A DNA stretch of 64,000 bases from Denitratisoma oestradiolicum (GTDB lineage Bacteria; Pseudomonadota; Gammaproteobacteria; Burkholderiales; Rhodocyclaceae), in NCBI RefSeq assembly GCF_902813185.1, contig NZ_LR778301.1, forward strand, positions 186,001-250,000. Direction: 5' to 3'. The notes under the pieces were generated by a model, which made no database searches, was not told the origin of the DNA, and saw nothing but the letters and a program-made list of their open reading frames with translations. Made by a program: the position numbers and the translations under genes. This document shows, piece by piece, positions 2,898 to 17,626 of the stretch; position 1 is the first letter of the stretch; every line of letters begins with the position of its first letter.

Positions 2898-3337
2898 ATC
2901 TGGCCGATTTGATGGATTTTCTGTCTCGTCCCGAGTTGGGACTGACGGGCCTGTTCATTTCCAGCTTTCTGGCGGCCACACTGTTGCCGGGCGGATCCGA
3001 GCTGATTCTTTTCGCCCTGTTGCGTCTGCGTCCCGAAACCCTCGTGGTCGCTGTGATACTGGCCACTCTGGGTAACACCCTGGGAGGCATGAGTACCTGG
3101 TGGCTGGCCCGGCAACTGCCTGAACAGGCCCTGGCGCGGCTATCACCCCGTCACCTGCACTGGTTACGGCGCTGGGGTCCGGCTGCCCTGACCATGGCCT
3201 GGGCGCCCCTGGCGGGAGATGCTCTCTGTGCGGCGGCGGGCTGGCTGAGGTTGGCCGCCCTGCCCTGTGCCCTCTGGATGGGACTGGGTAAAGGACTGCG
3301 CTACAGCCTGGTGGCCGCAGGAGCGCTTGCCTACTGA
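2894..3337 (+). CDS. YqaA/DedA-type small inner-membrane protein
   Basis: A 147-residue protein with about four hydrophobic segments. It carries the YqaA/SNARE-associated (DedA-like) pattern: an LPGGSE motif near residue 32 and a GNTLGGMSTWWLAR motif near residue 60. These small DedA-like proteins are inner-membrane proteins of uncertain transport function. The start is GTG overlapping the preceding stop. The 3' end overlaps the convergent MATE gene by 7 nt. Confidence 0.85.
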   Translation: MNLADLMDFLSRPELGLTGLFISSFLAATLLPGGSELILFALLRLRPETLVVAVILATLGNTLGGMSTWWLARQLPEQALARLSPRHLHWLRRWGPAALTMAWAPLAGDALCAAAGWLRLAALPCALWMGLGKGLRYSLVAAGALAY

Positions 3338-4701
3338 GTGCTGTCCTTTGTTGCCTTGTTCGCGATGTGCCACCAGTAAGCGCCGACCCCAAACCCGGCC
3401 AGCCAGAGCCCGGCGATGGCTGCCCACCAGAAGCCGCTGGGTCCCCGGGCTGGTCCCAGGACGCCGCCCAAGCCCAGCATGACACCCCCGCCCAGGCCGA
3501 CGCCCCACAGGGCCAGGGCATAAATCAGCATGGGTATGGCGGTCTTGCGGTAGCTGCGCAGTAAATAGACCGCCACGGCCTGGAGGGCGTCGGCCAGGTG
3601 GTAGAGCGCCACCAGCAACAGCAACTGACCCGTCAGGGTTTGCACGGCGCTATCTTGGGTGTAGAGGGAAGCGATCGTCTTGTTGCCGAAAGCAATCAGG
3701 GTGGCCAGGATCAGGGCACATCCCAGCCCCAGTTGCAGGCCCCGCAATCCAACCAACCGTGCTGCACCGGCTTCGCTCCGCCCCAGGGCCTGGCCAGCCA
3801 GCACTGCGGCGGCATGACCAATGGCCGTGGGCAGCATGAAGACCAGGGCTGCCAGGCTGGAGGCAATCTGATGGGCGCCCGACGCCACGGGACCGAAGCG
3901 GGCGATGAACAGAGCCATGAAGGTGAAGGCCGTGACATCCACCAGGAAGGTGGCGCCGATGGGCAGGCCCAGGCGGGCCAGGGCCGCCAGTCGCGTCCAC
4001 TCAGGCCAGCTCCAGCGGGAAAACAGTCCATAGGGCCGATATGCCTCCTGACGGTAGCACCAAATCCAACTCAGAATGGCCAGTAACCAGGCAATGAGGC
4101 TCGACGCCACACCGCAACCAGCGGCTCCCAGGGGCGGCAGTCCGAGTTGCCCATGCATGAAGATCCAATTCAAGGGTAACTTCAGACCCAGGCCCAGCAG
4201 GTTCAGCACCATCACCGGGCGGGGCCGGCTTATGCCGGCGGAAAAGCCATAGAACACCCGGAAAAACAGGGCGGCAGGGGCACCCCAGGCCATGGCATCC
4301 AAGTAAGCCTGTACCTTGGATGCGACTTCCGGTGTCAGTTGGGCGATGGCCAGCAAGGGTTCGGGAAAAGTCAGCAAGGCTATGGTCAGTACTGCCAGTA
4401 CCCCGGCCAGCCAAGCTGCCTGGCGTACCTGTTCCCCGATTTCTTCATACCGGCGGCCGCCCTGGAGGTGTGCCACTGTGGGCGAGAGGGCCAGCAGGAT
4501 GCCGGTGACGGAGATGAACAGGGATGCGTAGATGGCGGCGCCAATGCCGACTGCGGCCAGATCGATGGAAGACAAATGGCCGGCCATCAAGGTGTCGATC
4601 AGGCCATTGGCCATGACCGCCACCTGGGCCACGAAAACCGGCCAGGCCAGGCGTATCAAGTCACGCATGGATTTGTCGTTCGTCAAATTAGGTCGATCCA
4701 T
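3331..4701 (-). CDS. MATE family multidrug/toxin exporter
   Basis: A 456-residue polytopic membrane protein with about 12 hydrophobic segments arranged as two MatE repeats. The N-terminal AWPVFVAQVAVMANGLIDT stretch and the later GLPIGATFLVDVTAF are typical NorM-like helices. Such proteins export cationic compounds or drugs by Na+ or H+ antiport. The start is placed at ATG 4701 (MDRPNLTNDK). A further upstream ATG (4749) would add 16 polar residues. It is divergent from the cytochrome locus, across about 170 nt that probably hold both promoters. Confidence 0.92.
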   Translation of the reverse strand: MDRPNLTNDKSMRDLIRLAWPVFVAQVAVMANGLIDTLMAGHLSSIDLAAVGIGAAIYASLFISVTGILLALSPTVAHLQGGRRYEEIGEQVRQAAWLAGVLAVLTIALLTFPEPLLAIAQLTPEVASKVQAYLDAMAWGAPAALFFRVFYGFSAGISRPRPVMVLNLLGLGLKLPLNWIFMHGQLGLPPLGAAGCGVASSLIAWLLAILSWIWCYRQEAYRPYGLFSRWSWPEWTRLAALARLGLPIGATFLVDVTAFTFMALFIARFGPVASGAHQIASSLAALVFMLPTAIGHAAAVLAGQALGRSEAGAARLVGLRGLQLGLGCALILATLIAFGNKTIASLYTQDSAVQTLTGQLLLLVALYHLADALQAVAVYLLRSYRKTAIPMLIYALALWGVGLGGGVMLGLGGVLGPARGPSGFWWAAIAGLWLAGFGVGAYWWHIANKATKDSTQ

Positions 4702-4815
4702 TTTCGGGGGATGGCAGTTATTACGGGGCCGAGTGTGTGAAAAAGACAACGAAGGTAGGGAACTTTTTTCTTTTTATCGTGATGAGGCCCAGGGGAGAGA
4801 GTAGAAAACAAATTA

Positions 4816-4875: not shown

Positions 4876-5235
4876 ATGATTCATCACAGATTTGGTTCCT
4901 CGCTCATGTCCAGCATGATCGTCATGGTTGCAGCGCTGGCATTCGCCCCGGTTGCCCTGGCGGCGGATTTTGACGAGGCTGCCGCCAAGGCCCTGGCCAA
5001 GCGCAATGACTGCTTCAAGTGCCACGCGGTCGACAAGACCAAGAAGGGGCCCTCCTACAAAAAGATTGCTGCCAAGTACAAGGGCAAGCCCGACGGCGAG
5101 GAGAAGGCGATCAAGAACATCACCACGGGACCCAAGGTCAAGCTGGAGGACGGCACCGAGGAAGATCACAAGATCATTGACACCAAGGATTCGAAGGAAC
5201 AGAAAAATCTGGTGCATTGGATTCTTGCGCAATAA
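4876..5235 (+). CDS. Periplasmic monoheme cytochrome c (class I-like)
   Basis: A 119-residue precursor with a signal peptide cleaved near ALA-ADF. The mature protein has one heme-c site, CFKCH (C46-H50), and a class I C-terminal helix (LVHWIL). The mature part contains no methionine, so the usual His/Met axial ligation is impossible. H98 (EEDHK) sits about where the Met ligand normally lies. A good SD (GGAG) precedes the ATG. The position fits MtoD-like shuttles that link inner-membrane cytochromes to the MtrA/MtoA decaheme protein. The shuttle role is inferred from context. Confidence 0.88.
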   Translation: MIHHRFGSSLMSSMIVMVAALAFAPVALAADFDEAAAKALAKRNDCFKCHAVDKTKKGPSYKKIAAKYKGKPDGEEKAIKNITTGPKVKLEDGTEEDHKIIDTKDSKEQKNLVHWILAQ

Positions 5236-5304
5236 ATGAATCAGCAATGATGGGGTGTCATGGCGGCACCCCATATCGAGTTAACAGGCAAGAGGGAGAA
5301 TGAA

Positions 5305-6285
5305 ATGAAACTTCTACGACAGGCACTGACCTTGTGCGCATTTGCCGGCCTTCTGGGCGGGGTGTCTTCCGCGATGGCCGTGGAGAACCCCAAGGCAGCG
5401 GAAAAGAAGACGGTCAAGAAGGATCTGGTACTGAAGGATGATGCCCGTTGCACGGAGTGTCATGACGAGGCAGATTCTCCCGAAATACTGCGGGTAGGCA
5501 AGACCAAGCATGGTACGGTGGCCGATGGCCGTACCCCCACCTGTAGCAATTGTCATGGCGACAGTAACGCCCACGTGGATTACAAGGGCAGCGACAAGCC
5601 GCCCAAGCCGGATGTGACTTTCGGCAAGAAGAGCAAGACGCCGGTCGAGGCCAAGAACGAGGCCTGCTTGAGCTGCCATCAGGGCGGCAACCGGATCAGT
5701 TGGCAGTCCAGCAGCCACAGCATGCGTGGCGTTGCTTGCACCTCCTGCCATCAGGTTCATAACGGCCATGACAAGGTGCGGGACAAGACGGAACAAACCG
5801 AGGTCTGCTACACCTGTCACAAGGAACAGCGGGCACAGATGAATCGAGCCTCCCACCATCCGGTTCCGGAGGGCAAGATGGGCTGTTCCTCCTGCCACAA
5901 TGTTCATGGCAGCAATCACAAGCAACTGGTCAAGGCCAGCACCAACGAGACCTGCTATACCTGCCACATGGAAAAGCGGGGCCCCTTCGTGCATAACCAC
6001 GAACCGGTATCCGAGGATTGTGGCATCTGCCACCAGCCCCATGGCACTAATCTGGCCAACCTGTTGAAGTCCCGGCCGCCCATGTTGTGTATCCAGTGTC
6101 ACGGTCCGGACAGCCACCCGTCCCAGCCACCGGCCCTGCTGGTGGGTGCGTCGACGCTGAGTTACAACACCAATGCACGCGCTGGTTTCGGTACGGATGC
6201 GCGGGGTTGCCTGAACTGCCATACCAATATCCATGGTGGCAACAGCACCCAGACCAACGCCACCGCTGAGCGTTTCCGCCGCTGA
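5305..6285 (+). CDS. mtrA: Decaheme cytochrome c, MtrA/MtoA/DmsE family
   Basis: A 326-residue periplasmic protein with a signal peptide (cleavage near SSAMA-VE). Ten CXXCH motifs start at C49, C80, C121, C145, C168, C194, C217, C239, C262 and C302. Length and heme count match MtrA/MtoA, which insert into the MtrB/MtoB barrel to form an electron conduit across the outer membrane. The PioA type is longer at its N-terminus; this one is not. ATG 5305 has AGGGAG 7 nt upstream; the longer frame to 5260 is unsupported. The MtrB-like gene follows after 21 nt. Direction of electron flow (metal reduction or Fe(II) oxidation) cannot be told from sequence. Confidence 0.95.
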   Translation: MKLLRQALTLCAFAGLLGGVSSAMAVENPKAAEKKTVKKDLVLKDDARCTECHDEADSPEILRVGKTKHGTVADGRTPTCSNCHGDSNAHVDYKGSDKPPKPDVTFGKKSKTPVEAKNEACLSCHQGGNRISWQSSSHSMRGVACTSCHQVHNGHDKVRDKTEQTEVCYTCHKEQRAQMNRASHHPVPEGKMGCSSCHNVHGSNHKQLVKASTNETCYTCHMEKRGPFVHNHEPVSEDCGICHQPHGTNLANLLKSRPPMLCIQCHGPDSHPSQPPALLVGASTLSYNTNARAGFGTDARGCLNCHTNIHGGNSTQTNATAERFRR

Positions 6286-6306
6286 TTAGGATAGAGGGAG
6301 AGAATC

Positions 6307-8670
6307 ATGAACAAACACTTCACTTCCAGGCTGACAATCATTGCTGCCGCCTTGATGACGGTCTATGGCCAAGCCCAGGCTGAGGATGACGAGGTTCGTC
6401 AGTACTCCAAGCCCGACAGCTCCATTTCCATCGGCGTTGGTGGCACCCAGGGTGACCGCGAGCAGATGGGTAAATATGATGGGGTGACCGGGGATGACAC
6501 CCATGCCCTGGTCGACGTGGATATCCGCAAGCGGGATGATACGACCGGTACTTGGCTCAAGTTCTCCACGCACAACCTGGATTACGAGAATCGTGAACTG
6601 AAGGCCGAATACGAGCAGCAGGGCAACTGGGGCGTCTCCCTGGAGTACAACCAGACTCCGAGTCGCAATCCCAATGCTATCAAGACAGGTGTCTGGGGTG
6701 TCGGTTCCAATACATTGACTTACGGCGGCATTGGCACCACCACGGCGACCGCTCAGGCGGCTCTGAACCCAGCCACGGGCGACGTGCATCTGAGCACTCG
6801 GCGGGATACCACAACCCTGAGTATCGTCAAGCATCTGATGCCCAACCTGTCCTTCAACTTCTCGTTCAAGAATGAGGACAAAACGGGTAGCCGGGCCTGG
6901 GGCCGGGGCGTTAACCCGGAATTTGCCGCCGAGCCCATCAACTGGAACATCCGGCAGATCGATGGCATCCTGAACTACGCGGACAAGGTCTTGCAATTGT
7001 CCGGTGGCTTCTCGGGTAGCTGGTTCTCCAATGCCAATTCCTTCGTGGACACCATTGGCGGCTCTCAGCTCAATCAGACAGCGTCCACTACAAACGCAGC
7101 AGGCCATACCTTCATCTCCCTGCCTCTGGACAACCAGGCCTACCAGCTCTTCCTGGATGGTGGCTACAACTTCAGCAAGACCACACGGGGGACCTTCAAG
7201 GCTTCCTACACCCATGGTACCCAGAATGCGTCTCTGAGCCCCATCACCAATGCCTTGCTGAATTCGGGGGCTAGGGGAACCAACGGCTTTATTCCCTTCT
7301 CCGGTGCCCAGGAAGGCCTGGATGGCGAGGTCAACACCAAACTGATGGAAATCGGTCTTTCGGCCCGCCCCATCAGCAAGCTGTCCCTGGTGGCCAACTT
7401 GCGCTACCAGGACCGGGAGGACAAAACCCCGATGCGCGCCTTTGGTCGTTACTGGACCTATCGGTGCAGCACCACCGGCACCACCACCTATTATCTGGGT
7501 TCGCTCCCGACCAGCGCCAACTGCGCCAGTGGAACTGCCAATACCATTTCTGCCAGCCCTACGGAGATCGACAACAATCCCCGGGACTTCAAGAACCTGG
7601 CAGGCAAGCTGGAGGCCACCTATCAGTTGCCCGAAGGCTACAACCTGACCGCGGGTTACAACTACGACAAGCGGGAGCGGGGTTTCGAGATCGATCCTAC
7701 TGCGGGCGAGTATCTGGGCGTGGTCAAGATGCGTGGCAAGACCGAAGAGGATACCTGGCGCCTGCAACTGTCCAAGGCAGTCTCGGAGACGGTCAGTGGC
7801 AGTATTTCCTACCTGCACAGCAAGCGTGACGGCTCCACTTGGCACGTCGCTGAAGGCGCGGCCGATGCGGATCATCCCATCAACTTCGTCAATCCCGCAC
7901 CCTATGCCGATCGCAAGCGCAACCAGTGGCGCGTGATGCTGGACTGGGCCCCGACGGATGCCCTGTCCCTGCAGCTGAACATGGAGCATGCCAAGGACGA
8001 ATATGGCGCTGGCAAGTCCGGACTGCATGACGGCAAGACGCAACTGGTGTCCCTGGACGGCTTCTACAATATCAGTCCGGACTGGCAGCTGAACGGCTGG
8101 TTGTCCCACGATACTAACGAGTCCCACACCATCGGCTATACCTACGATACTCGTACCACTACGCCGATCAATTGGGCTTGTACCAGTGCACCGGGTGCGA
8201 CCATCTCTGCCGGTTGCACGACGGACCTGATCTGGGACGCCAACCTGAAGGATGTTGGCAATTCCATCGGTCTGGGCCTTAAGGGCAATGCGACGGCCAA
8301 GCTGAAGCTGGGGGGCAACGTGCAATGGACTCGCAACAAGAGTGAATATCCCATTGCCTCCAATGTCCCAACTTACTACTCGGGTACCTTGGCTGTGCCG
8401 ACATCACTGTCCAAGCAGGGGCTGCCTGATATCACCACCACCCTGACCCGTCTGGCCTTGTACGGCGAATATGCCCTGGACAAGAACTCGGACATCCGGG
8501 TGGATTTGGTGCATGAGCGCTGGAAGTCCGATGACTGGACCTTCATGGAATGGAACGCCGCCGGCACCAGCCTGGTTCCCTTCACCTACATGGATGGTAC
8601 GACGGTGACGGCTAACCAAGATCAATCGGCGACCTTCCTGGGCGTTCGTTACATCTACAAGTTCCAGTAA
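6307..8670 (+). CDS. mtrB: MtrB/PioB family outer-membrane beta-barrel
   Basis: A 787-residue precursor with a signal peptide (cleavage near QAQA-EDD). The rest is rich in alternating polar/aromatic strands, ending with RYIYKFQ. MtrB/PioB proteins form a large barrel that houses the decaheme cytochrome. The N-terminal CXXC seen in Shewanella MtrB is absent here, as in several Pio/Mto relatives; two Cys pairs occur in loop-like regions (YRCSTT/NCASG and WACTS/GCTTD). It follows the decaheme gene with an AGGGAGAGA SD. No extracellular MtrC/OmcA-type decaheme gene is in the window, so this resembles the two-component MtoAB/PioAB conduits. Confidence 0.93.
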   Translation: MNKHFTSRLTIIAAALMTVYGQAQAEDDEVRQYSKPDSSISIGVGGTQGDREQMGKYDGVTGDDTHALVDVDIRKRDDTTGTWLKFSTHNLDYENRELKAEYEQQGNWGVSLEYNQTPSRNPNAIKTGVWGVGSNTLTYGGIGTTTATAQAALNPATGDVHLSTRRDTTTLSIVKHLMPNLSFNFSFKNEDKTGSRAWGRGVNPEFAAEPINWNIRQIDGILNYADKVLQLSGGFSGSWFSNANSFVDTIGGSQLNQTASTTNAAGHTFISLPLDNQAYQLFLDGGYNFSKTTRGTFKASYTHGTQNASLSPITNALLNSGARGTNGFIPFSGAQEGLDGEVNTKLMEIGLSARPISKLSLVANLRYQDREDKTPMRAFGRYWTYRCSTTGTTTYYLGSLPTSANCASGTANTISASPTEIDNNPRDFKNLAGKLEATYQLPEGYNLTAGYNYDKRERGFEIDPTAGEYLGVVKMRGKTEEDTWRLQLSKAVSETVSGSISYLHSKRDGSTWHVAEGAADADHPINFVNPAPYADRKRNQWRVMLDWAPTDALSLQLNMEHAKDEYGAGKSGLHDGKTQLVSLDGFYNISPDWQLNGWLSHDTNESHTIGYTYDTRTTTPINWACTSAPGATISAGCTTDLIWDANLKDVGNSIGLGLKGNATAKLKLGGNVQWTRNKSEYPIASNVPTYYSGTLAVPTSLSKQGLPDITTTLTRLALYGEYALDKNSDIRVDLVHERWKSDDWTFMEWNAAGTSLVPFTYMDGTTVTANQDQSATFLGVRYIYKFQ

Positions 8671-8699
8671 TCGGGTTATGCTGATGTTTGCATGAACAG

Positions 8700-8729
8700 C
8701 CAAAAGGGCGGCGGGAGCCGCCCTTTTGG
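8700..8729 (+). terminator. Hairpin between the barrel gene and the cbcL-like gene
   Basis: A perfect 13-bp stem (ccaaaagggcggc and its complement) closed by a 4-nt ggga loop, starting 29 nt after the mtrB-like stop. The A-tract/T-tract is part of the stem, so it could terminate transcription on either strand. It probably ends or attenuates the cytochrome/barrel transcript before the next gene, which lies 52 nt downstream. Confidence 0.75.
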
Positions 8730-8781
8730 TTATCTGGCTCCATCGATCTGAATTATGGGTAGTCATCAGGAATCCAAAATC

Positions 8782-10767
8782 ATGGCAACGATAAATTATC
8801 TGGTGCGGCTCTCTGCACCTCTGATCCTGGCTCTTGGTCTGGCCTGGCTGGTGCCTGTCCAGGCTGCCACCAGCGAGGCTCCGTCCGGACTCGGCAATGC
8901 CACCTGTCTTTCTTGCCACGATGGAAAGAAGGGCAAGATCGAAGTTCCTGGCGGCGATGACACCCGGGCGCTTTATACCGTCGGCCATGATAAATATGGC
9001 AAGAGCGTCCATGGCAGGATGCAGTGCGTGGACTGCCACAGGGAAATCACCGATGCCAAGGCGTCCCACAAGAAGGCTGCAGGCGTGGCCGGGCCCAATT
9101 GCGTGGCTTGCCACCAGGGTCTGTGGGAAGCGCTACAGCAGGAAGGCAAGACCCAGGGAAAGGAGCGGATGGGGTTGGTGGTGAAGAATGTGGAGGCCTA
9201 CAAGAAATCCTTCCACGCCCGTCCCGACAAGGATGACCCTTCCCGGCCCAAGGCGGTCTGCGACCAGTGTCACAACACCCATGAATTCGCTGTGCCGCCG
9301 CGGGGTTCCGTCGAGCGCACGGAATGGCACGCCACGGTACCCCAGGTCTGTGGCGAGACTTGCCATGAGGATGCCCTGGATGAGTACAGCGGGTCAGCCC
9401 ATGGCAAGGCCCTTCAGGAAAAGCAGGACAAGAAGGTGGCTGTCTGTATCGATTGCCATACCGCCCATAACATTGTCAATACCTCGGGGGAGCCCTTCAA
9501 GGCCGCAGTCACCAAGAACTGCGGTGGTTGCCATGAAGAGAAGTTTGCGAGCTACAAGGACACCTATCATGGTCAGGTGAACACCCTGGGTTATGGGTAT
9601 ACCGCCAAGTGCTACAACTGTCACGGCAGCCACGAAATCCTCAAGGCCGATGATCCCGGGTCCAAGGTTCATCCGGATAATCTGCTGCGTACCTGCAAGC
9701 AGTGTCACAACGGCAAGAAAGATCTGCCGGAAGCCACGGCGGGCTTCGCCAGTTTCGGCGCCCATGCCACCACCCACGACTTCAAGCACTATCCCCAACT
9801 TTGGATCGCTTCCAAGTTCATGGTGGCCTTACTGATTGGCGTCTTCGCCTTCTTCTGGCTACATTCCGGACTCTGGTATTACCGGGAAGCCAAGGATCGC
9901 AAGGCGGGCAAGGCTGCGCCCCATATTCGTACAGAGGGCCTGGCCCTGGACGAGAAGAAGCACTTCCGTCGCTTCCATTGGGGCTGGCGCCTGGGCCACC
10001 TGAGTTTTGCCCTGGTGACCATGACCCTGGTCCTGACCGGAACCGCTGCCCTCTATGCGGAAAGCAGTTGGGCACCCGTGGTGGCCGGGATGTTCGGCAG
10101 TCCCCATGCCATGGGCTTGACGCATCGAGTCGCGGCGGCGCTCTTCGTCGGCATCTTCCTGATCCATTTCGTCTATGTGATGCAGAAGCTGTTGCGTGAC
10201 AAGACCTTCCGCTGGTTCGGTCCCGATTCCCTGATTCCTCGCTGGAAGGATCTCAGTGACTGTGTGGGCATGTTCAAGTGGTTCGTTGGCAAGGGACCGC
10301 GGCCCCAATTCGACCGTTGGGCCTATTTCGAGAAATTCGACTACTGGGCGGTCTTCTGGGGGGTGAACATCATCGGCTGGAGTGGCTTGATGATGGCCTT
10401 CCCCCATGTGACGGCAAGCTATCTGCCGGGCTGGGTCTTCAACGTGATCATGCTGGTGCACGGTGAGGAAGCCTTCCTGGCGGCGGTCTTCCTCTTCACG
10501 GTGCACTTCTTCAACAACCACTTCCGGCCCGACAAGCTGCCGCCGCCGGACGTGGTGATGTTCACCGGTACCCAGTCCCTGGAGGAGTTCCGTCGTGATC
10601 ATCCGGCCCAGTATCAGCGGCTGGTGGAGAGCGGTGAACTGGAGAAACATCTGGTGGATGCGCCGTCCTTGGTCATGACCCTGGGTTCCAAGATCCTGGG
10701 CCTGACCCTGATCACCATCGGTCTTGGCCTGCTGGTGTTGGTCGCTATCGGCTTCATGGGTCACTGA
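8782..10767 (+). CDS. CbcL-like protein: nine-site multiheme c domain fused to a b-type cytochrome membrane domain
   Basis: A 661-residue protein. After a signal sequence (1-28), residues 30-315 hold eight CXXCH motifs (C42, C82, C107, C160, C222, C247, C277, C305) and one CX3CH (C190, CGETCH). Residues 340-580 form a b561/HydC-FdnI-like membrane domain with histidines in or near helices (H406, H448, H462, H560, H575). A last hydrophobic helix ends the protein. This layout is that of Geobacter CbcL, a quinone-linked inner-membrane enzyme used in EET. It probably replaces the CymA/NapC-type protein found in other mtr/mto loci. ATG 8782 has AGGAA 9 nt upstream; ATG 8755 does not. Confidence 0.9.
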   Translation: MATINYLVRLSAPLILALGLAWLVPVQAATSEAPSGLGNATCLSCHDGKKGKIEVPGGDDTRALYTVGHDKYGKSVHGRMQCVDCHREITDAKASHKKAAGVAGPNCVACHQGLWEALQQEGKTQGKERMGLVVKNVEAYKKSFHARPDKDDPSRPKAVCDQCHNTHEFAVPPRGSVERTEWHATVPQVCGETCHEDALDEYSGSAHGKALQEKQDKKVAVCIDCHTAHNIVNTSGEPFKAAVTKNCGGCHEEKFASYKDTYHGQVNTLGYGYTAKCYNCHGSHEILKADDPGSKVHPDNLLRTCKQCHNGKKDLPEATAGFASFGAHATTHDFKHYPQLWIASKFMVALLIGVFAFFWLHSGLWYYREAKDRKAGKAAPHIRTEGLALDEKKHFRRFHWGWRLGHLSFALVTMTLVLTGTAALYAESSWAPVVAGMFGSPHAMGLTHRVAAALFVGIFLIHFVYVMQKLLRDKTFRWFGPDSLIPRWKDLSDCVGMFKWFVGKGPRPQFDRWAYFEKFDYWAVFWGVNIIGWSGLMMAFPHVTASYLPGWVFNVIMLVHGEEAFLAAVFLFTVHFFNNHFRPDKLPPPDVVMFTGTQSLEEFRRDHPAQYQRLVESGELEKHLVDAPSLVMTLGSKILGLTLITIGLGLLVLVAIGFMGH

Positions 10768-10936: not shown

Positions 10937-12670
10937 ATGCAAACGCAGTGGAAACATTGGTCGGCGCTTTATCCGGCTTGTTGGCAAACCCTGTGGGACC
11001 GGGGAGGAGATTTTCTCTGGCTGCTGGAACCGGATGGTCGGGTGGTGGATGGCAATCCCGCAGCGGCGGGTCTGATGGCAGGGATGCCGGTTGCCGACGC
11101 CCTTTTCTGGACCCTGCCCTGCTGGCTGGGCGCCCGCTTTTCCGGCAGCCCTCATTACCGTTTGCAGCAGGCAAGCCAGGGGGAGGTGGGGGAACTGGAG
11201 GTCTTGTTCGGGAGCGATCCCGATGAACGCCGTATCCAGCTCAGTCTTCTGCCCGTTCCGGATGCAGCAGGCGCCATTCCGTTTCTGCTGGTGGTCGGAC
11301 GGGAGCTGCCCCGCCACCGTGGCAAGGAGGAAGGTTCTTCCAGGCTGTCGCTCGATATCTGTCTGGAGAACACTGGCCCGGTAGTCCTGGCGGACAGCCT
11401 GTATCAGGCCATGACACGGGCCCGCTGTGATGCATCCCTGCTGGCGGTCTGTCATCTGGACATCGATGGCTTGCGGGCTGTCCGGGAAAGCCTGGGGAAG
11501 CGGGTTGGCACCCCACTGCTGCTGGCCGCGGCACAACGCCTGCGGGAGGTACTGCGGGGAGGGGACACCGTGGTTCGCCGAGGGGACGACGAGTTTGTTC
11601 TGCTGGTGGGGGACTTGTGCCAATTGGGGGAACTGGACCGGGTGATGGAGCGGGTGCTGGACATCCTGGCCCAGCCCTTCGATATCGACGGCCATTGCAT
11701 ACAACTCTCGGCCGCAGTTGGTGTCACGATATATCCTGATGATGACAACAGTGATGGTGAAACCCTGTTACGTCATGCCGGCGAGGCCATGGCGGCGGCC
11801 CGGGAAAGAGGCTACAACTCCTACCGCCTGTTCGACACGGCCCATACCAGGCAACCCCGTCGGCAAGCATCGGCCCGTTTGCGGGAAGCCTTGGCGGCGC
11901 AGGAATTCGAGCTGCACTATCAGCCCAAGGTTTGCCTGCGCAGCGGCCGGGTGGTGGGTACCGAGGCCCTGCTGCGTTGGCGCCATCCGGAACGGGGTCT
12001 GCTGTTGCCCGGCGAGTTCATGACTATCATCGAAGACGCGGGGCTGTGCGTCGAAGTGGGTAAATGGGTGATCGAGAATGCCCTGGCCCAAGCGGATGTT
12101 TGGCGCCGGGCGGGTACGGATCTGGCGGTCAGCGTCAATGTGTCGTCCCGACAGTTGCAGGACGCTCAGTTCATCCCCCATCTGACCGATGTCCTGAAGG
12201 CCTTTCCTCAATTGCCGAACGGGGTGCTGGAGCTGGAAATCGTCGAGTCCGCCGCCTTGCACGACATCCAGCGGGTCGGCGAGATCATCGAGCAGTGCAG
12301 GCAACTGGGGGTGAGCTTTGCCCTGGACGATTTTGGCACCGGCTATTCCTCCCTTGCCTACCTCAAGCGCCTGCCTGCGCGGACCTTGAAGATCGACCAG
12401 AGCTTCATCGTCGACCTGCTGCGCAACTCGGAAGATGTGGCGATTGTGGAAAGCATCATTGGCCTGACCCAGGCTTTCCGCCGGCAGGTGGTGGCCGAGG
12501 GCGTCGAGACCCGCGAATTGGGCGCCATGGTGTTGCGGCTGGGCTGCGATGTCGCCCAGGGCTACGGCATCGCCCGGCCCATGCGAGGGGAGTTGATGCC
12601 AGATTGGGTGCGCGCCTATCGCCCGGACCCATCCTGGGTGAGCGCCGGCACCGCGCACCGGGATAGCTGA
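10937..12670 (+). CDS. GGDEF/EAL composite protein, probable c-di-GMP phosphodiesterase
   Basis: A 577-residue protein: a PAS-like N-terminus (about 20-125), GGDEF domain (about 150-300) and EAL domain (about 315-565). The cyclase signature is degenerate: residues 216-220 read GDDEF rather than GGDEF. The EAL domain keeps its key motifs: EALLRW (343-348), NVSSRQ, DDFGTG (464-469), KIDQSF, VAEGVET and a terminal QGYGIARP. The likely activity is therefore hydrolysis of c-di-GMP, with the GGDEF part regulatory. No membrane segment is seen. It follows the EET locus on the same strand, after a hairpin, so it probably has its own promoter. Confidence 0.92.
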   Translation: MQTQWKHWSALYPACWQTLWDRGGDFLWLLEPDGRVVDGNPAAAGLMAGMPVADALFWTLPCWLGARFSGSPHYRLQQASQGEVGELEVLFGSDPDERRIQLSLLPVPDAAGAIPFLLVVGRELPRHRGKEEGSSRLSLDICLENTGPVVLADSLYQAMTRARCDASLLAVCHLDIDGLRAVRESLGKRVGTPLLLAAAQRLREVLRGGDTVVRRGDDEFVLLVGDLCQLGELDRVMERVLDILAQPFDIDGHCIQLSAAVGVTIYPDDDNSDGETLLRHAGEAMAAARERGYNSYRLFDTAHTRQPRRQASARLREALAAQEFELHYQPKVCLRSGRVVGTEALLRWRHPERGLLLPGEFMTIIEDAGLCVEVGKWVIENALAQADVWRRAGTDLAVSVNVSSRQLQDAQFIPHLTDVLKAFPQLPNGVLELEIVESAALHDIQRVGEIIEQCRQLGVSFALDDFGTGYSSLAYLKRLPARTLKIDQSFIVDLLRNSEDVAIVESIIGLTQAFRRQVVAEGVETRELGAMVLRLGCDVAQGYGIARPMRGELMPDWVRAYRPDPSWVSAGTAHRDS

Positions 12671-12680
12671 GCGCGCCGCC

Positions 12681-13451
12681 TTACTTCCTGTCGGCCAGCA
12701 GGTCGTCCGGGCGTTGCGAAAAGTCCCGGCTGCTGCCATGGGCGCGGGTGAGGGTGGGAATCAGCGCAGGCTGGTAGGAATAGCAGGCGCCGCTGCGCGC
12801 CTTCATCTTTTCGTTGACTCCCGCAGGGAGGTTGTCCATGTCGAACAACAGAGAGATGGAAACGATCAGGGTGCGGCGGGCGATGGTGATCGCCTCGATC
12901 TCATCCAGGTCGCTGAGCGAGACGTCCACCCAACGCATCATGCTGCGCACGTTTTGACCGGCGCAAGGGCCCGCGGTGATCTCGTCGCCCTCCATGGGCC
13001 ACTCCAGCGCCAGTTCGCCATCGCGCCGCAGCAGCAGCCGGCGCTGCCCGGAGAGAACGTGGCCGTGCGACCCCAGTTCGGTACGGAAACTGTCGTCAGT
13101 GTGAACTTCCATGTCATAAAGACGGCGAGTTGTGCCACGGGCGGCGTGGGCAATGGCCAGGCTGGCCAGATCGAACATGTGGGTGCATTGCTCGGCGCTC
13201 GGCGTATGCCGGTAGGCCGCCTGAGGGTGGGACGCCAGGGCCATGCCCACCAGCCGAGGTAGATTGCCGGCAGCTCCCGGGCATTGGGCCCAGGGGCTGC
13301 GGACGTGCGTAGTGTCTGCTTCCACGGCCAGTACCCGGCTGCCATCGTGGTGCACGATGATGCCGAAACGGTGCTGGTTGTCCTCGACGTCGGCGCGAAC
13401 GCTGCGGTCGCCGGCGACAATCTGGATACGGCGACGGAGAATCTTGCTCAT
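12681..13451 (-). CDS. Uncharacterised protein, possibly DUF2889 family
   Basis: A 256-residue soluble protein without signal peptide or membrane helices. The middle ([18 protein letters not shown], about 88-105) and the following beta-rich region resemble DUF2889 proteins of unknown function. That match is from memory and is tentative. The start codon overlaps the stop of the upstream gloA gene (ATGA), so the two form one operon. Confidence 0.75.
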
Positions 13452-13834
13452 GGCTTGTCCTGGATCAGTTCGATGCGATAGCCATCCGGGTCCTCGACGA
13501 AGGCGATGATGGTACTGCCATGTTTCATCGGCCCCGCTTCCCTGACCACCTTGCCGCCCCGCTGACGGATAGTCGCGCAGGCGGCAGCGGCGTCCGGCAC
13601 CGCCAGGGCGATATGGCCGAAGGCGTTGCCAAGTTCGTACTTTTCAACCCCGTAGTTGTAGGTCAGTTCGATCACCGCGCTGCTGCCCTCATCGGCGTAG
13701 CCGACGAAGGCAAGGGTGAACTTCCCTTCGGGATAGTCATGGCGGCGCAGCAGGCGCATGCCCAGCACCTGGGTGTAAAAGTCCAGGGACTTTTCCAGGT
13801 CACCGACCCGGAGCATGGTGTGCAAAATTCTCAT
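13448..13834 (-). CDS. gloA: Lactoylglutathione lyase (glyoxalase I)
   Basis: A 128-residue glyoxalase/VOC protein starting [20 protein letters not shown]. It isomerises the hemithioacetal of methylglyoxal and glutathione to S-lactoylglutathione. Metal-ligand positions fit the family: His near residue 5 (ILHTM), Glu in VIELTYN, His in GHIALAV and Glu in RIELIQ. The longer frame to 13978 would add 48 unrelated residues. Translationally coupled to the DUF2889-like gene. Confidence 0.95.
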
Positions 13835-14031
13835 GGTGTCATCGACCCCGTTGATGATGCTCGGAACGGCGAGATGGTATCCCATCGCCCCTGGCTTTGC
13901 CCCTTTTGGCCCGGGTGGCGGTTGCAGCAGGATGGGGGCAGTGTCGATATTCAGGCTACAATCCGGCCACTTTCCCATGAAGAGGAAAGGGTTTCTGGGG
14001 GGCCGATGTGTACGCCGAGGCTGGCGCAGCC

Positions 14032-15723
14032 ATGATCAAGGGTCTGCGCATCCGTTACAAGATCATGCTCGTGGTCGGTCTGGCCGTGACCATCGGCCTG
14101 GTGGCTACCGCCTATTTCTATACCCAGCGGCAGGAGCAGGCGGTGCTGGCTCAGAACGAGCGCACCATGCAGAAGCTCACCGAGAGCGTCAGCCAGGGTT
14201 TGCAGAGCGTGATGCTGCATGGCTCGGCCGATATCGCCTCAGCCTATGCCGAGCGACTGAAAGGTGTTCCAGAAATCTCCGATTTCCGCATTCTACGGGC
14301 GAACGGCGATGAGGCTTTCCGCGACAACAAGACCATCAATGAGGTCAATGGACGACGGGGCGAGGAGGCCTTCATGCCCCGGGAAACGGAAGTCCGCATC
14401 CCTGTGCTGGCAGCGGACGACCCCCGGCTGGCCCGAGTGCTGCAAGAAAAGCAGCCCTTGCCGTTTTATACCTTCGATACCAAGGGCGTGAAGGAGCTGA
14501 CCTTCCTGGCGCCGATCGAGAATCAGAGCAAGTGCTACAAGTGCCATGGCCGTGCCCGTCCGGTGCGGGGGGTGCTCAAGCTGACCACTTCCCTGTCCAC
14601 CGTGGAGCGGGATGTGCTCAAGGTGCGGCACGATTCCTTGATCGTGCTGGGGCTGGCCCTGATGGGCACCATGCTGCTGACCGGCTACACGATGGGGCGT
14701 ACCGTGGTGGCGCCCATCGAGGCGGTGACCGATGCCATGAGCCGCGTCTCCGGCGGCGCCCTGGAGCAGCGGGTACCCATTCATGGCAACGACGAGCTGG
14801 GCCACATGGCCATGAGCTTCAATCAGATGACTTCGGAATTGCAGGATACCTACCAGGGCTTGCAGGCCGAGCAGGACAAGCTGACCACCATCATTTTCGG
14901 CGCCGGGGAGGGCATCGTGGTCACCGACAGCGATGGTGCCATCGTGTTGGTGAATCCTGCCGCCGAGCGTCTGATACAAAAATCCCGGGAGCGGATCATC
15001 AAGGAGGGCTTCGACGATCTGCTCGACGACCCGGTCAGCATGCGCCGCTGGTTGGCAGATCGCGAGAACCGGGGGCCGATCAGCGTGTTGTACAAGGCGC
15101 AGGTGCTCAACGTCTATGTCTCCACGATCCATGTGGAGGACGGCCATGTGGTGGGGTCGGCCTGTCTGTTGCGTGACGTCACCGAGGAAAAACGCCTGGA
15201 GGAGGAACTCAGGCGCCTGTCCACCACCGACGGTCTGACCGGACTGTTCAATCGCCGCTACCTGGACGACACCCTGCGCCGGGAGTTCGAGCGTTCCCGG
15301 CGTACCGGTGCCCCCCTGTCAGTGGTCATGTTCGATGTGGATCACTTCAAGAAATTCAACGATACCCATGGCCATGACCAGGGAGACCGGGTGTTGCGGG
15401 CGGTGGCCACATGCCTGCGTGAGGCCTTGCGCAAGTACGACAGCCCCTGCCGTTACGGTGGCGAGGAGTTCGTTGGCATCCTGCCTGATACCACCATGGA
15501 AGCCGCCCTGGCCGTGGCTGAGCGCCTGCGCCAGGATGTGGAAACAATGCGTGTGGACGGCCTGCAGGTGACCATCAGCCTGGGGGTGGCGGGTCTTCCC
15601 CGGCTGGCAGCGGGTAGCGCCGAGGAACTGATCGAGCTGGCCGATGCCGCCCTGTATCAGTCCAAGCACCAGGGGCGCAATCGCACCACGTTGGCGACGC
15701 TTAGCAAGGGAGATGCCCCATGA
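14032..15723 (+). CDS. Membrane diguanylate cyclase with periplasmic heme-c sensor domain (1)
   Basis: A 563-residue protein: transmembrane helix 1 (about 9-31), a periplasmic DUF3365/Tll0287-like domain with a heme-c site CYKCHG (168-173), transmembrane helix 2 (about 202-222), HAMP, a PAS domain (about 283-385) and a GGDEF domain with an intact GGEEF (476-480). Covalent heme facing the periplasm suggests sensing of redox state or a small ligand, with c-di-GMP as output. ATG 14032 aligns with the start of the downstream paralogue; a GTG at 14008 is an alternative. It is followed by a repeat array and that paralogue. Confidence 0.92.
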
Positions 15724-15940
15724 GCGCCCCGCACGGCCGCCCGAAGGGGCGCAAGACGCAGCCCGGAGCCGCAACGCGGCGAACCGTCGTCCCCCACTCC
15801 CGCGGGGAGGGGGCCGGGGGGAGGGGCGGTTCCCGCGCCCCGTACGGCCGCCCGAAGGGGCGCAAGACACAGCCCGGAGCCACAACGCGGCGAACCGTCG
15901 TCACCCCCTCCCTTGGGGAGGGGGTTGGGGGGAGGGTAGT
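15722..15940. repeat. Tandem pair of palindromic repeats, family C
   Basis: Two units of about 113 bp sit side by side. Each reads (c)acggccgcccgaaggggcg, cagcccggagcc, aacgcggcgaaccgtcgtc, then a C-rich/G-rich hairpin (cccgcggggagggggccggggg in the first, split by a few changes in the second). They separate the two heme-sensor cyclase genes. The G-rich end supplies the ribosome binding site of the second gene. Related sequence lies inside waaA (45813-45957). Confidence 0.85.
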
Positions 15941-15943
15941 CCA

Positions 15944-17626
15944 GTGAGATTGCGGACCCTGCGCCACAAGCTTCTGCTGACGGTCGGCATCGCCCTGGCC
16001 CTGGCCTTTTCCGGTGTTGCCTACTTCTATACCAGTTACCAGGAAAAAATGATCCTGACCGACTACGAGCGCTCCCTGCAGCGGGTCACCAACTCGGTGA
16101 CCAAGGGGTTGGAGTCGGTGATGCTGGAAGGTCACGCCGAGATCATGCGGGAGTATTCCAAGCGTCTACGGGCCTTGCGGGATGTCAGTGAGTTCGTCAT
16201 TCTGCGCGCCGACGGCAGCGAAGCCTTTCGGGACAATGCCACGGTGTCCCGGGTCAATGAAAGGCTGGGAGCCGAGAACTTCCCCCTCTATCCTCAGCCC
16301 GTCATCCGGAAGAATCTGGATCCGGCCGATGCGGAATTCCAGCGGGCGCTGCTGACCCTGGAAGCCACCGCACGGGAAATCACGGACAGCAAGGGGCAAC
16401 GCCAGTTCATCTTCTTCGATCCGATCCCCACCGGGCCGGGATGCCAGCGCTGCCATGGCAGTGATGAGCGGGTCCGGGGGGTGATCAAGGTGACATCGAG
16501 CCTGGCCGGCGTCGAAGCGGCGATCTTCCGGGTGCGTCTGCAATCGATGCTGATCATCACCCTGGCGATGGCTCTGACCATGGCGGTGACCGGCTATATG
16601 CTGGGGCGCTCGGTGGTGCATCCCATCGAGGCGATCACACGGGCCATGAAGCGGATTTTGTCGGGGGATATCGGCTCCACGGTGCCCTTGCAGGGGGGCG
16701 GCGAAATCCGCCAGATGGCGGAGAGTTTCAATCAGATGACTGCCAGCCTGAAGCTGGGCTATGACCTGCTGGTGCGGGAGCGGGAAAAACTGACCACCAT
16801 CATTCATGCGGCCCGGGAAGCCATTGTGGTCACCGACGCGGCCGGATCGATCGTCCTCATCAACCCCGCCGCGGCCGAGCTGCTGGGCAAGACCGAGGCC
16901 AACATCCGCGACGAGGGCTTCCTGCACCTGCTCGACAACCCGGAACTGATGGAGCGCCTGCTGGCGGGCGCGGGCCAGGCTGGGCACACAGAGACTGTGG
17001 CCTACCGGGATCGGGTGGTGCTGGTTTCTGCCGCCTCCATCAAGGACGAAGGCGGGCGGCCCCTGGGTTCGGCGGCCCTGATCCGCGATGTCACTGACGA
17101 AAAACGCATGATCGAGGAACTGCGCCGCGTCTCCATCACCGATGCCCTGACCGGAGTTTTCAATCGCCGCCACATGGATACCACCCTGAGTACCGAGTTC
17201 GGCCGCGTCCAACGCTCCGGCAAGCCCCTCTCAGTGTTGCTGTTCGATATCGACCACTTCAAGAAATTCAACGACACCCATGGTCATGACCAGGGGGACC
17301 GGGTGCTTCAGGCCGTTGGGCAGGCGATGAAAGCGGTGGTGCGCAAGTACGACACGCCCTGCCGTTACGGTGGGGAGGAGTTTGTGATCATCCTGCCGGA
17401 AGCCGACCGGGCCGGTGCCCTCAGCGTCGGTGAGCGCCTGCGGCGGGATGTCGAGGCCATGCTGGTCGATGGCCTTCATGTCACCATCAGCCTGGGCGCC
17501 GCCACCTTTCCTGAGCTCGCGCTGAGCAAGGCGGAGCAGTTGGTCGAGGCGGCGGATGCCGCCCTCTATCAAGCCAAGGAGGAGGGGCGCAACCGGTTGG
17601 TGGTGGCCGAGGGGCCGGCTACCTGA
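15944..17626 (+). CDS. Membrane diguanylate cyclase with periplasmic heme-c sensor domain (2)
   Basis: A 560-residue paralogue of the preceding gene with the same order: transmembrane helix, DUF3365-like domain with heme site CQRCHG (from C167), second helix, HAMP, PAS and GGDEF. The active motif GGEEF falls at residues 476-480, exactly as in the first copy. The start is GTG 15944 (VRLRTLRHKLL). The open frame reaches back to 15644, but that part is repeat sequence and overlaps the first gene. The SD (GGAGGG, 15931-15936) lies in the repeat. The 3' end overlaps the convergent EB_dh gene by 8 nt. Confidence 0.92.
   Translation: MRLRTLRHKLLLTVGIALALAFSGVAYFYTSYQEKMILTDYERSLQRVTNSVTKGLESVMLEGHAEIMREYSKRLRALRDVSEFVILRADGSEAFRDNATVSRVNERLGAENFPLYPQPVIRKNLDPADAEFQRALLTLEATAREITDSKGQRQFIFFDPIPTGPGCQRCHGSDERVRGVIKVTSSLAGVEAAIFRVRLQSMLIITLAMALTMAVTGYMLGRSVVHPIEAITRAMKRILSGDIGSTVPLQGGGEIRQMAESFNQMTASLKLGYDLLVREREKLTTIIHAAREAIVVTDAAGSIVLINPAAAELLGKTEANIRDEGFLHLLDNPELMERLLAGAGQAGHTETVAYRDRVVLVSAASIKDEGGRPLGSAALIRDVTDEKRMIEELRRVSITDALTGVFNRRHMDTTLSTEFGRVQRSGKPLSVLLFDIDHFKKFNDTHGHDQGDRVLQAVGQAMKAVVRKYDTPCRYGGEEFVIILPEADRAGALSVGERLRRDVEAMLVDGLHVTISLGAATFPELALSKAEQLVEAADAALYQAKEEGRNRLVVAEGPAT

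Follow-up and report, generated by a model that had tools for sequence, protein, structure and literature searches.

Comparison with described Mto, Mtr and CbcL systems

The closest described counterparts of the locus reported here are the mtoABCD clusters of Dechloromonas aromatica RCB and Gallionella capsiferriformans ES-2, which resemble each other and of which the latter encodes a nonaheme MtoC (PMC5566968). The locus, at positions 4876-10767 of a 64,000-nucleotide stretch of Denitratisoma oestradiolicum (RefSeq assembly GCF_902813185.1, contig NZ_LR778301.1, positions 186,001 to 250,000; hereafter the window, whose numbering is used throughout), comprises four open genes on the (+) strand. 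Likened by gene types, all four are common to the RCB and ES-2 clusters and the window, which differs in its host and in a GGDEF-EAL gene that comes after the cluster. We regard its membership of the MtoDABC type as almost certain. The mtoABD-cymA (imoA) cluster of Sideroxydans lithotrophicus ES-1 shares the MtoA, MtoB and MtoD types, whereas its inner-membrane protein is a NapC-type tetraheme cytochrome rather than the nine-heme b/c fusion of the window; ImoA is reported to restore outward current to Shewanella oneidensis devoid of cymA (PMC13390432). The decaheme and barrel also recur in PioAB of Rhodopseudomonas palustris, which is not known to have an MtrC; the window differs from it by MtoC.

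The fourth protein, MtoC, belongs to the CbcL/MtrH/MtoC family named by Zhong and Shi (2018), who described mtrH or mtoC clustered with mtrAB or mtoAB in seven species (PMC6295460). In another survey, mtoC and mtoD lie next to mtrCAB nearly exclusively in Betaproteobacteria (PMC8805035). Geobacter sulfurreducens CbcL has nine c hemes and a six-helix di-heme b domain (PMC9129911), as is predicted for the window MtoC; the identity reported between MtoC and CbcL is about 35% (PMC6295460). The two differ in one CX3CH motif present in the window protein; moreover, CbcL works with the menaquinone pool (PMC12307469), and none is predicted for the window host. The window MtoC is 67% identical over 649 columns to the D. 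aromatica RCB protein P0096, which from strain and family should be the published RCB MtoC.

The initial annotation had presented the locus as a hybrid. Since mtoABCD is already published for RCB and Gallionella ES-2 (PMC5566968, PMC6295460), this hybrid is not new and the locus is an added example, which brings a near-complete Denitratisoma genome to those with MtoDABC. What it adds to the published clusters is an exchange of CymA-type and MtoC-type modules at one site within a genus, together with a probable ubiquinone-using, heterotrophic setting.

Architecture of MtoC and its partners

Motif counting found eight CXXCH motifs and one CX3CH (residues 190-195) in MtoC, so that the nine heme-c sites initially assigned to this 661-residue protein are reached if CX3CH is counted, strict CXXCH motifs being eight. 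The CX3CH motif is also present in 69 of 80 MtoC relatives. Six hydrophobic segments lie downstream of an N-terminal one; a multiheme N-terminal domain followed by six hydrophobic helices is the layout of the CbcL/MtrH/MtoC family. The membrane histidines H361, H406, H448, H462, H560 and H575 are invariant in all 45 aligned sequences; three conserved membrane histidines are in print for the family (PMC6295460).

Fold comparison of the predicted membrane domain revealed FdnI as its best match, with a four-helix b-cytochrome domain. PDB sequence searches found no cytochrome b relative, and fold comparison alone gave one. The Ni_hydr_CYTB family (PF01292) matches 19 of 20 aligned MtoC sequences at E <= 0.01, with a score of 26.7 bits for the window protein, below the cut-off of 30.1. 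Against the formate dehydrogenase gamma family TIGR01583, the membrane domain scored 21.4 bits (E 2e-4), far below the cut-off of 115.85; MtoC thus has the FdnI fold in common with this family but is no formate dehydrogenase gamma subunit. Together with the invariant helix histidines, the fold bears out the b-type membrane domain of the initial reading.

The three preceding genes are, in the order first read from the DNA, a monoheme cytochrome c, a decaheme cytochrome with ten CXXCH motifs and an MtrB/PioB-type barrel, as their family matches show (Table 1). The decaheme adjoins the barrel, as is characteristic of an MtoDABC cluster, and shares 66-68% identity with its counterparts in three further clusters of this type (G028, G032 and L031). 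The PF00034 match and single CXXCH mark the first product as a putative MtoD-type monoheme; it is 65% identical to its counterparts in G028 and G032, and 52% to the one encoded at the corresponding site of the same-genus genome G001. An extracellular MtrC/OmcA, which the initial annotation had noted as absent from the locus, is not found in the whole host genome as far as TIGR03507 can see: the best score is 22.3 of 209.3 bits, and 14 control genomes also fall below the cut-off, so that the search has no positive control.

Co-conservation of MtoC with MtoA and MtoB

We compared the best 80 of 454 stretches encoding MtoC relatives in the genome collection. These loci were collected via MtoC and cover its closest relatives only, so that clusters with CymA alone are under-sampled. 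Both MtoA and MtoB are present in 39 of the 80; at the 52 well-covered loci, with at least 5.5 kb on either side of MtoC, both occur in 33, MtoA only in one and neither in 18. MtoB lies directly upstream of MtoC in 19 of these 52, and an MtoD-like gene within 500 bases upstream in 27. The predicted co-conservation therefore holds for a majority of relatives and fails for the 18, which indicate that MtoC alone is no proof of extracellular electron transfer and warn against calling the process from CbcL/MtoC by itself. For the window, the FdnI fold, the membrane histidines and the 33 loci together sustain the proposal that an MtoAB conduit here adjoins a quinone cytochrome of the CbcL type. NapC/CymA-like proteins are also present in three of the 39 loci having MtoA and MtoB (L037, L056 and L078, none arranged A-B-C) and in three of the remaining 41 (L023, L038 and L040).

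MtoC proteins from 79 loci and from the window were placed on a quick tree of 80 rows, L007 having been left out for a stop inside its matched stretch; 63 of the rows are labelled, the other 17 being on contigs too short to tell. The nearness of MtoA/B changes eight times over the labelled rows. This, the 18 loci with neither partner, and an EB_dh-like protein near MtoC in 13 of the 80 loci (12 of which lack both MtoA and MtoB) are what would be expected if MtoC were a general-purpose quinone module serving redox proteins of the periplasm, with no functional meaning to its position beside MtoAB. We consider this explanation improbable for the window, as the A-B-C arrangement, with MtoB just upstream, takes only 13 changes compared to a shuffled mean of 20.9, and none of 500 shuffles was as low. 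Fifteen of the 24 A-B-C rows fall in one 19-row clade, and the window lies outside it. On this tree, the MtoC module has repeatedly been coupled to and uncoupled from MtoAB.

In 12 of the 13 EB_dh-like cases the gene lies upstream of the MtoD-like cytochrome and MtoC (for example L010:7979-11866). PF09459 was scanned in L010 only, and the other loci were assigned by at least 62% identity. MtoC may thus have a front end of a second kind in the EB_dh-like protein. The parts of PMC10654088 consulted do not describe this pairing; the literature search was limited and is no proof that the pairing is unpublished. Cyc2 was considered for the ~440-residue, one-CXXCH protein upstream of MtoC in loci lacking MtoAB, and was ruled out by the PF09459 match in the scan.

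Among 61 genomes searched, including that of the host, 15 have an MtoC match, full-length or nearly so in 13, and two genomes of the same genus have none. Of the 12 other carriers, four have an MtoB match adjacent to MtoC: G025 (weak), G028, G032 and G050, where it is 1.7 kb downstream. In G008 the match shares the contig of MtoC at no more than about 14 kb from it; in the remaining seven, none was found beside MtoC or nearby on the contig. At L111 (G008:C22), a single MtoC stands next to a row of matches, three of them MtoA-like and three MtoB-like. In L060, L020 and L006, MtoC is preceded by an MtoD-like gene and a distantly related decaheme (32-33% identical to MtoA), and in L060 a 733-residue protein that looks by eye like a barrel lies between them; these loci perhaps represent another conduit subtype using MtoC.

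Other conduits in the genome and exchange at the same site

The host genome (two contigs, 99% complete) has a single copy of MtoC and four PF11854 barrels, each adjoining a ten-CXXCH protein, including those of the window. One of the other pairs (C1:1613-1618 kb) is accompanied by a NapC/CymA-like tetraheme protein, another lies at C1:646-649 kb, and a third belongs to a conduit at C1:510-516 kb (L094), in which a monoheme c, decaheme and barrel are followed by a chemoreceptor with one CXXCH and then a cytochrome b561. The initial annotation had held that a CymA or MtrC set elsewhere would undo its reading; such a set is half present, as a CymA-like protein with decaheme and barrel plus two more MtrAB-type pairs, with no MtrC/OmcA over the cut-off. 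The suggestion that a CbcL-like protein stands in place of CymA consequently applies to the locus but not to the cell.

With these pairs at hand, the window cluster might be redundant or little used. We find this hard to credit: all four window genes are open, and the other decahemes are 35-51% and the barrels 18-36% identical to those of the window, so that the pairs are not recent duplicates.

Replacement at the locus itself is seen in G001, which is probably Denitratisoma sp. DHT3: the window's IlvA has 92% identity with the IlvA of that strain over 90% of its length. At its site flanked by the MatE gene, the minus strand carries a barrel, a decaheme, a NapC/CymA-type cytochrome (PF03264, 198 bits), a monoheme c and an AraC regulator, followed by the glyoxalase-like gene. 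The G001 decaheme and barrel are 52% and 28% identical to those of the window, compared to 66% and 43% for the MtoDABC cluster of G028. As the G028 cluster is the closer one, the cassettes do not derive from one inherited cluster with its fourth gene swapped. A third genome, G002, has neither type of cluster there: only about 120 bases separate the matched portions of its MatE and glyoxalase-like genes, and no CXXCH-bearing open reading frame of at least 80 residues is present in the 19.9-kb stretch. The exchange between the window and G001 offers a natural comparison for learning what a quinone module of the FdnI type can do that one of the CymA type cannot. It is conceivable, though doubtful, that the two modules are exchangeable cassettes that move with their MtoAB at fixed sites and alter the energetics: uptake into ubiquinone via MtoC would be directly proton-motive (a half redox loop), as its FdnI-type b domain should place the quinone site close to the cytoplasm, in contrast to the electroneutral NapC/CymA type at the periplasmic face, and lineages would switch between cheap and energy-conserving uptake.

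Quinone partner and direction of electron flow

We propose that MtoDABC is an extracellular electron transfer unit linking the outer surface and the quinone pool, and as a whole this explanation is likely to be right. In the assembled unit, MtoA sheathed by MtoB would form the electron path across the outer membrane; MtoD or another cytochrome would act as the carrier between MtoA and the part of MtoC that faces the periplasm with nine hemes; and the FdnI-like membrane domain, through two b hemes, would connect to the quinone pool, with ubiquinone as the probable partner. Electrons would usually flow inward: Fe(II), solid minerals or reduced humics would supply them to denitrification or oxygen respiration, with the host feeding on organic carbon.

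In the host genome menD stayed below the cut-off, with a best score of 71 against 244 bits, and there was no match to the MqnA/MqnD family (PF02621) and no RuBisCO large subunit over the cut-off. These negatives suggest a ubiquinone-using heterotroph, for which electron uptake is somewhat likelier than mineral respiration, and on them the ubiquinone partner and the inward direction are based; they also suggest that such conduits serve heterotrophic, ubiquinone-based bacteria. Of the 13 genomes that encode a homolog of MtoC, menD is over the cut-off in five (G024, G026, G030, G032 and G050), three of which hold more distant homologs (47-48% identity), and PF02621 in none. MtoC thus seems not to require menaquinone in general. 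ES-1, with its CymA-type Mto system, likewise has no menaquinone genes (PMC13390432). Altogether, the quinone evidence gives moderate support to electron uptake into ubiquinone.

Certain observations speak against an inward-working unit: there is some evidence of reversible electron flow through Mto/Mtr (PMC10734462), the host genome has no detected RuBisCO, and MtoD of ES-1 binds neither MtoA nor ImoA (PMC13390432). The first two would also favour a mainly outward flow, in which MtoC oxidises ubiquinol or an unrecognised low-potential quinol and passes electrons to Fe(III), Mn(IV), humics or an electrode, like Geobacter CbcL: without RuBisCO, Fe(II)-driven Calvin-cycle autotrophy is unlikely, and CbcL is required for respiring low-potential acceptors (PMC9129911). 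Nevertheless, the menD and PF02621 negatives argue against outward flow, as does the lack of an MtrC-type cytochrome over the cut-off, a feature of clusters linked to Fe(II) oxidation (PMC4245776). We therefore lean towards net inward flow and rate the outward alternative as rather unlikely. For inward flow a solid electron donor is plausible, since MtoA of ES-1 was detected only in growth on solid magnetite (PMC12016527).

Gene layout and neighbouring features

The cluster stands at a variable site bounded by the MatE and glyoxalase-like genes (Table 1). Alternative starts are possible at 5260 for the mtoA-like gene and at 8755 for mtoC.

Table 1. Coordinates of the MtoDABC genes and adjacent features in the window
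Feature	Position	Strand	Basis or remark
MatE transporter, left edge of variable site	3331..4749	-	PF01554; 75-79% identity in G001, beside another conduit there
mtoD-like periplasmic monoheme cytochrome c, 119 aa	4876..5235	+	one CXXCH; PF00034 33 bits
mtoA-like decaheme cytochrome, 326 aa	5305..6285	+	ten CXXCH; TIGR03508 264 bits, cut-off 192
mtoB-like outer-membrane barrel, MtrB/PioB type, 787 aa	6307..8670	+	PF11854 444 bits; TIGR03509 306 bits, cut-off 240
Perfect 13-bp hairpin, 4-base loop, between mtoB and mtoC	8700..8729	+	possible attenuator or terminator
mtoC, quinone cytochrome of CbcL/MtrH/MtoC family, 661 aa	8782..10767	+	nine heme-c motifs and six transmembrane helices
GGDEF-EAL protein, right part of segment without counterpart at the G001 site	10937..12670	+	PF00563 and PF00990; no match in L107
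Glyoxalase-like gene, right edge of variable site	13448..13978	-	family name by eye; 73% identity in G001, 80% in G002

Stems of at least 12 bp, as in the mtoB-mtoC hairpin, occur in only 0.15% of 2000 pieces of 111 bases drawn at random from the window. In relatives, the same gap has a hairpin of at least 7 bp in nine of 22 cases, compared to 7% of 2000 such pieces; five of the nine are near copies from Azoarcus/Aromatoleum, and five of the 22 gaps are shorter than 20 bases or negative. As hairpins are commoner here than at random, they may set the level of MtoC below that of MtoAB. The hairpin is among four terminator-like matches in the terminator scan; in the window, sigma-70 promoter and terminator matches are no commoner than in shuffled sequence, and an Rfam scan gave nothing above the gathering score.

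The guanine-plus-cytosine content of the cluster is 58% compared to 64% for the window, and at third positions 0.73-0.76 compared to 0.74-0.80 in neighbouring genes. Recent horizontal transfer was considered; as the third-position values are neighbour-like, no conclusion was drawn from base composition. Two HAMP-PAS-GGDEF proteins (14008-15723 and 15644-17626) are encoded near the conduit, each with one CXXCH in its sensor part as judged by eye, and are possible heme-based cyclic di-GMP sensors.

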